Shown piece by piece: positions 51,602-58,026 of a DNA stretch of 64,000 bases. The DNA comes from Anaerococcus marasmi (GTDB lineage Bacteria > Bacillota > Clostridia > Tissierellales > Peptoniphilaceae): NCBI RefSeq assembly GCF_900290195.1, contig NZ_OLMF01000004.1, forward strand, positions 1,353,501-1,417,500, in the 5' to 3' direction. Below the pieces are notes generated by a model. That model saw only the letters and a list, made by a program, of their open reading frames with translations. It made no database searches and was not told where the DNA came from. The first letter of the stretch is position 1; every line of letters starts with the position of its first letter. The translations under genes and the position numbers were made by a program.

Positions 51602-51785
51602 TGATCTTCCTTTCATAAAACATTTCACTTACATTATACAATAAATGTAAGATTATGTTAATCTCCTATCTATTTTCTTGTATTAGGTAGAAAAACCACT
51701 AGCTTGTAAGGCATAGTAGCTGTATATTTCCTTTCACAAAACTTATTGACTTTATACAATAAAGCTTATAGATTACTACTTTAAC

Positions 51786-51814
51786 TTGTAATATACCATT
51801 AATATTAGTATAAT
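51786..51814 (+). promoter_or_regulatory. Promoter of the candidate antitoxin RNA
   Basis: TTGTAA, 17 bases, TATAAT on the plus strand, opposed to the toxin gene. Confidence 0.65.
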
Positions 51815-51820
51815 ATGAGC

Positions 51821-51888
51821 GACTAAAAGAATAGAGTTCATCATTTTGGACACATTAAAAGACTGGAGTTGCCGCTCCAGTCTTTTTT
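51821..51888 (+). ncRNA. Candidate RNAII-type antitoxin RNA
   Basis: The inferred ~68-nt transcript holds AAAGAATAGAGT (51826-51837) and ATCATTTTGGACAC (51840-51853), which repeat sequences inside the toxin mRNA region (51974-51985 and 52004-52017) and so are antisense to it. It ends in the shared terminator. This is the layout of the enterococcal par locus. Confidence 0.65.
51857..51888. terminator. Bidirectional terminator shared by toxin and antitoxin transcripts
   Basis: AAAAGACTGGAG pairs perfectly with CTCCAGTCTTTT around a six-base loop, with T-runs on both strands. Confidence 0.85.
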
Positions 51889-51900
51889 CTTGGCTAGTTA

Positions 51901-52008
51901 CTATTCATCTTCATTACTATCTAACCATTTACAAATATAGTGACTAATTACATTTGCCATGATAGCAACAATTAAAGAATAGAGTAGACCCTGACATGGA
52001 TCTATCAT
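51901..52008 (-). CDS. Small hydrophobic peptide, candidate Fst-like type I toxin
   Basis: A 35-codon frame with a strong site (AGGAAGGGGG, eight bases before ATG). The peptide MIDPCQGLLYSLIVAIM, then ANVISHYICKWLDSNEDE, has one membrane helix and a charged C-terminal tail, as in Fst/Ldr-type toxins. A -10 box TATAAT lies at 52056-52061 with a poor -35. The antisense direct repeats cover its start codon. Toxicity is inferred from layout and peptide type. Confidence 0.7.
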   Translation of the reverse strand: MIDPCQGLLYSLIVAIMANVISHYICKWLDSNEDE

Positions 52009-52333
52009 TTCGGACACCCCCTTCCTGTTACCAGTCTAGGGATAGTAACTCATATATTATACTATAAATTAGGTATTTATAGTGGTTTTTTATATGTTAC
52101 ATGTCTTGATCAATATTAAATGTACAAAATACATATTTAAAATATCAAAAGCTCAATAACAACCTTAATTCATCAATTAAAATCTATTTGATCAAGTGAT
52201 TTTTCTAAAAATTTAAAGATTTAGTTTGACTTTTGATTTAAAATTATTCTAATTATATTAATAAGAGTGATAACAATTATTATAATTATTTTAATATTCT
52301 GAACTCTAAAATATAACTTAAGGAGAATTGCAT

Positions 52334-53049
52334 ATGGCTTTTATAGGAAGAAAATTACCAGAGTTTAGTTTAGATGCTTATGATCCATCTAAGGAAGAAT
52401 TTGTTACTGATAAGGACCTCCTAGATAAGTGTACTGTCCTAATATTTTAACCAGCAGATTTTACTTTTGTATGTCCGACAGAGCTTGAAGATATGCAAGA
52501 ATCATATTTAGAAACAAGAAAGTTGCCTACTGCACCCACTGTGATGGTCCTCTCTTTAAGGATAAGCCAGTAGCAGTAATTGGAGGTGGCAATTCCGGTG
52601 CGGAAGCTGCAATTGATCTTGCTAATCTCGCTAAGAAGGTTACAGTTATAGAGTTTCTACCAGAGCTTAAGGCAGACAAAATCCTCCAAGATAAGCTAAA
52701 GAACCTATAAAATGTAGAGATAATAACCAAAGCCCAAACGACCGGCCTTTATGGAAATGGCAAGGTCCAGAGCCTAAAATTTACTGACAGGTTCTCTGGC
52801 GAAGAAAAGGAAATAGCCATCGACGGCTGCTTCATCCAAGTAGGCCTTGTTCCTAATACAGAATGGCTAGCTGAAAGTGAAGTCCAGTTAAATAAACACG
52901 GTGAAATAATAACGGACAAGAATGGCCCAAGCAATGTAGAATTTGCAGCAGGAGATTCTACAGAGACTGCCTTCAAACAAATTGTAATAGCTGCAGGCTC
53001 TGGTGCAACAGCAGCCCTCGGAGCCTTCAACTACTTGATGGTAAACTAA
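52334..53049 (+). pseudogene. ahpC/ahpF deletion fusion, inactive
   Basis: The first ~58 codons read as AhpC (AFIGRKLPEFSLDAYDP, then [15 protein letters not shown]) with TAA in place of the tyrosine codon before PADF. After MQESYLE the sequence jumps, in another frame, into Ahp[29 protein letters not shown] and, after a second TAA near 52709, IDGCFIQVGLVPNTEWL to the normal C-terminus. A deletion thus joined the two genes, and two stops and a frame change followed. Confidence 0.88.
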
Positions 53050-57771: not shown

Positions 57772-58010
57772 CAAAAAAACCCGCCCTGTATAGGACGAGT
57801 GTATTCGTGGTACCACCTAATTTCATAATCTAAAGATTACCTTGACAAGAGTCTATCAACTCCTTGCTTCTGATAACGGTAGCTTCCGTAATAGCTTACT
57901 AGATTCGGCTATTCTGCATACAGAGGGAATAAGTATATACTCCTTACAAGACTTGCACCAACCGTCTTTTCTCTTAAGTAATTCATATAAACTATCTTTC
58001 TGTAATCACA
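57772..58010 (-). promoter_or_regulatory. T-box riboswitch upstream of trpXYZ-like genes
   Basis: On the minus strand: Stem I base ACAGA/TCTGT, terminal loop region GACGGTTGGTGCAAGTC, the T-box AGGTGGTACCACG, and a terminator ACTCGTCCT/AGGGCGGGT followed by TTTTTTT (57772-57800). Uncharged tRNA would stabilise the antiterminator. On the 3' side of Stem I, UAC and UUC triplets are seen but no UGG, so tyrosine or phenylalanine is more likely than tryptophan as the signal. Confidence 0.85.
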
Positions 58011-58026
58011 TTTATTCTTTAACTAG

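Follow-up and report, generated by a model that had tools for sequence, protein, structure and literature searches.

The closest described counterpart of the locus examined here is par of the Enterococcus plasmid pAD1, whose toxin is Fst and whose two RNAs are RNA I and RNA II. In the excerpts of a 2020 review on which we draw (PMC7472228), a PXXXG motif is reported to be essential in Fst of pAD1; the broader form, P/D/S/TXXXG, is present in the "majority" of toxins and so is not universal, and neither is the YUNR U-turn in the terminator loop among par-type loci. Two helices of par given in the same excerpts, 5'-UH and 5'-SL, are the counterparts of two helices that we predict below. The review lists commensal Clostridia among the hosts of Fst, in those excerpts without detail, and excerpts of a second review (PMC6563280) touch on Clostridia, naming asparagiforme; some Fst-like genes in Clostridia are therefore already known, and these may include members of the clade described here. 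No paper describing that clade was found in the open-access literature searched, and many subscription papers lie outside the reach of such a search.

The window, by which we mean the whole stretch of DNA analysed, comprises 64,000 nucleotides of an Anaerococcus marasmi contig (NZ_OLMF01000004.1). We consider it very probable that the window carries, on the chromosome, a toxin-antitoxin locus of type I with the mode of action of par of pAD1, and that its peptide is a member of a divergent clade within the Fst/Ldr superfamily.

Layout of the locus

A first-pass annotation, made from the letters alone, had described a gene for a 35-residue membrane peptide on the minus strand, a short plus-strand RNA with its own promoter facing it, two direct repeats found both in the short RNA and across the toxin start and early codons, and a perfect bidirectional terminator common to the two. 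All of these parts were recovered by computation, the short RNA and its promoter as predictions:

51786..51814, plus strand: predicted antitoxin promoter, TTGTAA-17-TATAAT, a consensus match of 10/12
51821..51892, plus strand: predicted antitoxin RNA (RNA II), about 72 nt, its start placed from the -10 box and its end from the terminator
51826-51837, plus strand: antitoxin RNA copy of the direct repeat AAAGAATAGAGT, complementary to toxin codons 8-12
51840-51853, plus strand: antitoxin RNA copy of the direct repeat ATCATTTTGGACAC, complementary to the toxin start codon region
51855..52049, minus strand: predicted toxin mRNA (RNA I), about 195 nt, placed from the -10 box and the terminator
51857-51868 and 51875-51886, both strands: common bidirectional terminator, 12-bp stem, 100% complementary, with a 6-nt loop
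51897..51904, minus strand: 3' arm of the 5'-UH in the predicted fold, touching the stop codon
52008-51901 (51901..52008), minus strand: putative toxin gene, 35 codons for 35 amino acids, a hydrophobic stretch followed by CKWLD and an acidic tail
51974-51985, minus strand: toxin copy of AAAGAATAGAGT, in the early toxin codons, 12/12 identity
52004-52017, minus strand: toxin copy of ATCATTTTGGACAC, over the toxin start codon, 13/14 identity
52017..52026, minus strand: strong Shine-Dalgarno stretch AGGAAGGGGG, its G-run paired in the predicted fold (probability 0.61-1.0)
52042..52049, minus strand: 5' arm of the 5'-UH in the predicted fold, pairing with mRNA nt 146-153
52061-52056, minus strand: toxin promoter -10 box TATAAT, perfect, with no recognisable -35

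An alternative in-frame GTG at 52017 would give a toxin of 38 amino acids. The site lies on a contig of 1.95 Mb and is chromosomal, as the first-pass annotation had it; pdxS (SOR/SNZ family) flanks the locus on one side, and on the other begins what, from a reading of its translation, we take to be a peroxiredoxin-like gene. The stretch upstream of pdxS is in part duplicated beside the locus (51607-51645 and 51728-51763), perhaps a trace of the locus' arrival, and further repeat families are present in the same stretch of the window. Elsewhere in the window, a T-box leader (Rfam RF00230) at 57788-58015 stands upstream of a gene for an ABC-type substrate-binding protein. At the locus itself Rfam gave no match at the gathering threshold; matches to MicC, Anti-Q and the like fell far under their cut-offs and were rejected.

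The enterococcal par architecture that had been proposed for the locus draws support from the repeats and the terminator, and also from the predicted fold of the toxin mRNA, which carries both par helices: the 5'-UH, found from energy prediction alone, in which the first 8 bases pair with bases 146-153 beside the stop codon (probability 0.54-0.97 per pair), and the 5'-SL, which pairs the Shine-Dalgarno G-run. The terminator is absent from the list of the terminator scanner because, by our reading, its stem consumes most of the T-run; its loop (CGGCAA/TTGCCG) shows on inspection no YUNR U-turn. The first base of the toxin TATAAT lies at -53 from the start codon, which is the median position of the toxin -10 in the clade. 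No -35 hexamer with at least three matches was found at a spacing of 16-18 nt in front of it, and with a perfect -10 and no -35 the toxin may therefore be transcribed only weakly.

Repeats, helices and promoters across related loci

The first-pass annotation had proposed looking for homologous repeats in related genomes; when searched for, these proved largely cognate-specific across 170 distinct loci. The locus set comprised 201 extracted records (84 extracted places, 37 viral-contig loci and, of the 430 loci confirmed in the genome collection, the best 80), of which 10 were dropped for peptide length or a missing hairpin and the remainder reduced to 170 with distinct peptides. The 170-locus repeat test requires a hairpin; otherwise the repeat, helix and promoter tests are free of pattern selection. 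With the repeat score defined as that of the top gap-free alignment of the toxin start region to the sequence past the terminator, we obtained a mean of 12.3 for cognate pairs versus 6.8 for mismatched pairs and 6.6 for shuffled sequences, with scores of at least 9 in 96.5%, 6.9% and 5.3%, respectively. When two repeat blocks were chained, the score was 18.7 for cognate and 5.5 for mismatched pairs; two collinear blocks occurred in 126/170 loci versus 89/850 mismatched pairs, and at 101 of the 170 loci a block overlaps the toxin start codon. Canonical Fst loci behaved similarly under the chain score (18.4 versus 5.1 mismatched; two blocks in 10/18), the sample being the 18 loci with a terminator by rule and full flanks among 30 taken, via NF033608, from the order around an Aerococcaceae MAG.

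Predicted RNA pairing gives the same picture. For each of the seven toxin mRNAs of the own genome, the body of its own sRNA is the strongest binder of the seven (mean -35.3 versus -16.1 kcal/mol for the others), and over 65 genus loci the cognate mean is -31.7 kcal/mol versus -14.9 for 190 mismatched pairs from the same genomes. Since cognate repeat scores and pairing far exceed the mismatched values, the repeats change together, as is required of an antisense pair. Co-resident copies look largely orthogonal, and within the own genome that orthogonality is incomplete: two paralogues (1010534 and 1784301) come near to cross-binding, at -29.9 and -27.3 kcal/mol, versus -36.3 and -32.1 kcal/mol with their own sRNAs.

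The 5'-UH, too, is conserved despite sequence change across the clade loci. In the helix test set of 147 loci, from which the 23 of 170 lacking a perfect 7-bp stem were left out, an anchored 5'-UH of at least 6 bp is present in 81%, and in 22% when loci are mismatched. Many of the 74 helix strings are nested variants, others are clearly different, and the mean helix length is 7.8 in the genus versus 6.2 in the genome-collection loci. Since this helix in many cases covers the final codons, the ...DN-stop ending common in the genus may reflect RNA pairing besides protein function. A perfect stem of at least 7 bp follows the gene in 147/170 loci (15/146 windows drawn at random from these loci), an antitoxin promoter, directed towards the toxin gene, was found at 165 of 169 loci (85.4 expected from shuffles), and a toxin promoter at 140 of 169 (73.6 expected).

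The peptide, its family and its spread

By inspection, the window peptide has a hydrophobic core followed by KWLDSNEDE, that is, one helix-length stretch and a charged C-terminus, with W28, between the two, as the signature Trp of the superfamily. In the clade, Trp occupies this position in 145 of 155 scored peptides (the other 15 of the 170 fall outside the scoring pattern), and KWLD is near-invariant; many of the 170 loci were found through [HY][YL]ICKWLD or a similar pattern, which itself contains the W, so that residue counts for the clade are biased. The P/D/S/TXXXG motif is absent from the window peptide, which reads AIMAN, with Ala and Asn at the Pro and Gly sites. Among the 155 scored peptides the Pro site holds A, S or T in 148 and Pro in 2 (S, T, D or P in 113), and the Gly site holds G, N, S, D or E in 146, Gly itself in 64.

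Neither curated Fst model, PF13955 or NF033608, matches the window peptide, and PF13955 scores above its cut-off in 0/31 genus genomes; the same search gave matches in 7/14 control genomes. Weak matches to NF033608 occur in 10 of 85 clade members, the best score seen being that of L257 (E 4e-5, 23.3 bits versus a cut-off of 26), an intermediate with PIMVG ahead of THYICKWLD. The Clostridioides difficile type I toxin model, NF047374, is weakly matched by 14/85 (best 9.2e-5) and not by the window peptide; the clade score seen was 14.5 bits versus a cut-off of 60, and the one range seen, residues 6-21, lies within the hydrophobic part. A Pfam holin model is weakly matched by 16/85, matches to it and to NF047374 being no rarer than those to NF033608, and Ldr_toxin by 5/85 (best 0.03). 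Across Pfam, NCBIfam and PHROGs the weak matches were to holin, DUF2158, transporter and unannotated models, with PHROG 33013 (no annotation) the best of the PHROGs (2.2e-4, in 2/26), and sequence search matched no solved structure.

The profile comparison is stronger. Aligned by hhalign with 22 canonical Fst toxins, the clade profile gave a probability of 95.5% and an E of 1.6e-8, with Trp on Trp, nine residues past the Gly column in both; of 100 controls with permuted columns, none equalled this match, the best reaching 88.2%. Single-sequence homology is weak, since only 11/85 clade members outscore all of 1276 background hydrophobic peptides on a canonical Fst HMM, the count in the reverse comparison being 11/22. 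Assignment to the Fst/Ldr superfamily thus rests on the profiles, the intermediate L257 and the common RNA architecture, and on these grounds we classify the window locus from its sequence as a par-type type I locus of that superfamily, outside the curated Fst subfamily. The first-pass annotation had credited the locus with a toxin sequence of its own, which is partly right: the peptide lies outside the curated Fst models, yet it is one of a large clade with a profile that can be aligned to canonical Fst.

A peptide search of the own genome gave 7 matches at E up to 10, the weakest at 0.85, and the profile at E 0.05 found 8 related places, 7 of them intact-looking. At the same threshold 23/31 genus genomes match; one match (G010, E 0.028, inside a 430-codon frame) looks spurious, so 22/31 carry copies. 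The genus holds 73 places at E 1e-5 or better; six rows from among its weakest matches (E 0.007-0.037) were not extracted. In the order, 39/249 genomes match at E 0.01, 22 from the genus and 17 others. Six places were extracted from four of these 17 (three from G100 and one each from G142, G150 and G137), some of them containing internal stops, and the 13 genomes with single weaker matches were left out. In an even draw of 398 genomes from the phylum, 14 (the own included) match at E 1e-6, with up to nine places per genome. One 8-residue pattern occurs in at least 590 stretches of the genome collection, with at least 430 confirmed relatives; titles among the best 80 of 430 include Lachnospiraceae, Blautia, Hungatella, Veillonella, Selenomonas, Peptoniphilus, Anaerococcus and an Aerococcaceae MAG.

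Mobile elements carry the family as well. At E 1e-3, 370/72,556 plasmid records match (328 Enterococcus, 28 Streptococcus, 5 Aerococcus, 4 Carnobacterium, 3 Vagococcus, 1 Lactococcus and 1 uncultured); at the 30 plasmid places listed there is no annotated gene under the match, in a plasmid gene table that is incomplete. Two inovirus records with the peptide were found among 50,697 phage records. At each of the eight loci fetched from plasmids or phages, a repeat in the start region recurs past the gene, with scores of 12-19 (for mismatched pairs the mean is 6.7 and the maximum 12); a perfect stem of at least 8 bp is present at seven of the eight, the inovirus hairpin being imperfect by rule. 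Three loci (L316, L317 and L320) lie on conjugative Enterococcus faecium plasmids with no gene annotated under the match, L317 near ssb. In the inovirus bajarodino virus 29 (L321) there is a KWLD toxin ORF with a shared repeat, and the record annotates an ORF on the opposite strand. Tandem copies, two or three genes some 270-750 bases apart, were seen at L077, L100, L119, L121, L122, L130 and L132. From these sequences we read the window peptide as a member of a divergent, largely unannotated "KWLD" clade of Clostridia, Negativicutes, Enterococcus plasmids and two filamentous phages (inoviruses).

Function, history and comparison with known systems

The same site is occupied in the own genome and in two close relatives, G006 and G004; in G021, pdxS and the peroxiredoxin-like gene are separated by a short spacer without the locus. 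In G006 the locus is 99% identical and the antitoxin RNA nearly unchanged, with the toxin -10 region replaced; G004 has a disrupted toxin frame and a changed antitoxin -10. When the DNA of the window locus was used to search the genus, RNA II-like sequences without an adjacent toxin also came up in G029 and G027, the latter having no toxin match anywhere in its genome yet an antitoxin-like RNA. These toxin-less RNAs (L330 and L331) have a terminator and sit at the same site in the two genomes, between what are presumably a TetR-like gene and an ORF ending like the ribonucleotide reductase small subunit. Their predicted pairing with the window toxin start is -31.3 (G027) and -28.0 kcal/mol (G029), the medians over genus loci being -15.1 and -12.3 kcal/mol. 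The two RNAs are relics or else anti-addiction antitoxins; on visual inspection their conservation does not exceed that of their flanks, and the other partial matches (L332-L334) are fragments. Both the toxin-side decay in G006 and G004 and these toxin-less RNAs fit the logic of a toxin-antitoxin system.

Next to the locus, at 52334-52730, a peroxiredoxin-like fragment runs directly into a reductase-like one, with the junction at 52506/52507. The sequence here is some 1.4 kb longer in G006, G004 and G021, which suggests loss, in the window strain, of the central part of what, from reading the translation, we take to be an ahpC-ahpF-like pair.

Transcription, pairing in the cell, the block of translation and toxicity are steps that we infer, and they would run as follows. 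The minus-strand mRNA of about 195 nt would encode the 35-residue membrane peptide, and the plus-strand RNA of about 72 nt would act as its cis antisense antitoxin, the two being complementary over the terminator hairpin and over the two repeats at the start codon and early codons, where pairing would keep the ribosome from binding. As long as the mRNA is free, the 5'-UH would lock its 5' end to the stop-codon region and the 5'-SL would hold the Shine-Dalgarno G-run paired, so that translation of the toxin would be delayed until the antitoxin has bound or is lost. With too little antitoxin, the peptide would enter the membrane and growth would stop.

Three other readings deserve weight in unequal measure. 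The arrangement could be due to chance, since short ORFs and short repeats are common singly; with repeats and helices that covary and are conserved over 170 loci, this is barely worth entertaining. We think it improbable, though a good deal less so, that the peptide is a small membrane protein that is no toxin, placed under the same antisense RNA logic and serving a regulatory or structural role. In favour of this, neither the Pro nor the Gly that is reported to be essential in Fst of pAD1, in the excerpts cited (PMC7472228), is present in the peptide. Against this, its profile matches Fst, and the family is multi-copy, patchy in the genus, borne by plasmids and phages, found in tandem and subject to loss on the toxin side, which is the pattern of toxin-antitoxin systems.

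There is a minor but appreciable chance that the family is real and the window copy is partly a dead remnant, its toxin gene hardly or no longer transcribed because the toxin promoter lacks a -35. The want of a -35 match of three or more at 16-18 nt points this way, as do the replaced -10 in G006 and the broken frame in G004, whereas the ORF, the Shine-Dalgarno sequence, both predicted helices, the repeats, the terminator and a perfect -10 at the median -53 are all intact in the window. This reading concerns the window copy alone and overlaps with the explanation that we prefer, a working par-like type I locus; the locus is probably a sound type I toxin-antitoxin unit, functional or recently functional.

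In a larger context, the surprise lies less in a single locus than in the size and spread of an unnamed clade and in its departure from a motif held to be essential for Fst. If the peptides are toxic, the loci are candidate addiction modules, and the clade is a natural test of the need for the Pro and Gly of Fst. We would venture, as a conjecture that we ourselves doubt, that the KWLD clade is a large and almost unannotated type I lineage of Clostridia, Negativicutes, inoviruses and Enterococcus plasmids, with toxins that work without the Pro-Gly motif, with private repeat codes that keep copies in one genome largely orthogonal, and with toxin-less RNAs that guard genomes against incoming copies of the window type.

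Among the systems described, Ldr/Rdl of enterobacteria share with the clade the signature Trp of the superfamily and differ in a regulation closer to that of hok/sok, according to the excerpts of PMC7472228. The type I toxins of C. difficile are, as the peptides of the clade are predicted to be, small membrane toxins of Clostridia with a convergent antisense RNA; in the portions of PMC6563280 used here, they differ in a lysine-rich C-terminus and are reported to be without sequence homology to known type I toxins. The nearest system remains par of pAD1. The clade departs from canonical Fst in lacking PXXXG and having a near-invariant KWLD, and in the distance from the stop codon to the terminator stem (median 9 nt versus 45.5 nt in the 18 canonical Fst loci); relative to par, the 5'-UH of many genus copies meets the stop codon or extends over it, and the U-turn (YUNR) is found in the terminator loop of only 38/147 clade loci. 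The likenesses, as far as par is set out in the excerpts of PMC7472228, extend from the convergent RNAs, predicted in our case, the repeats in the start region and the bidirectional terminator to the 5'-SL and 5'-UH, here predicted as well, and to a membrane peptide of about 33 amino acids with a charged tail and Trp at the position typical of the family.
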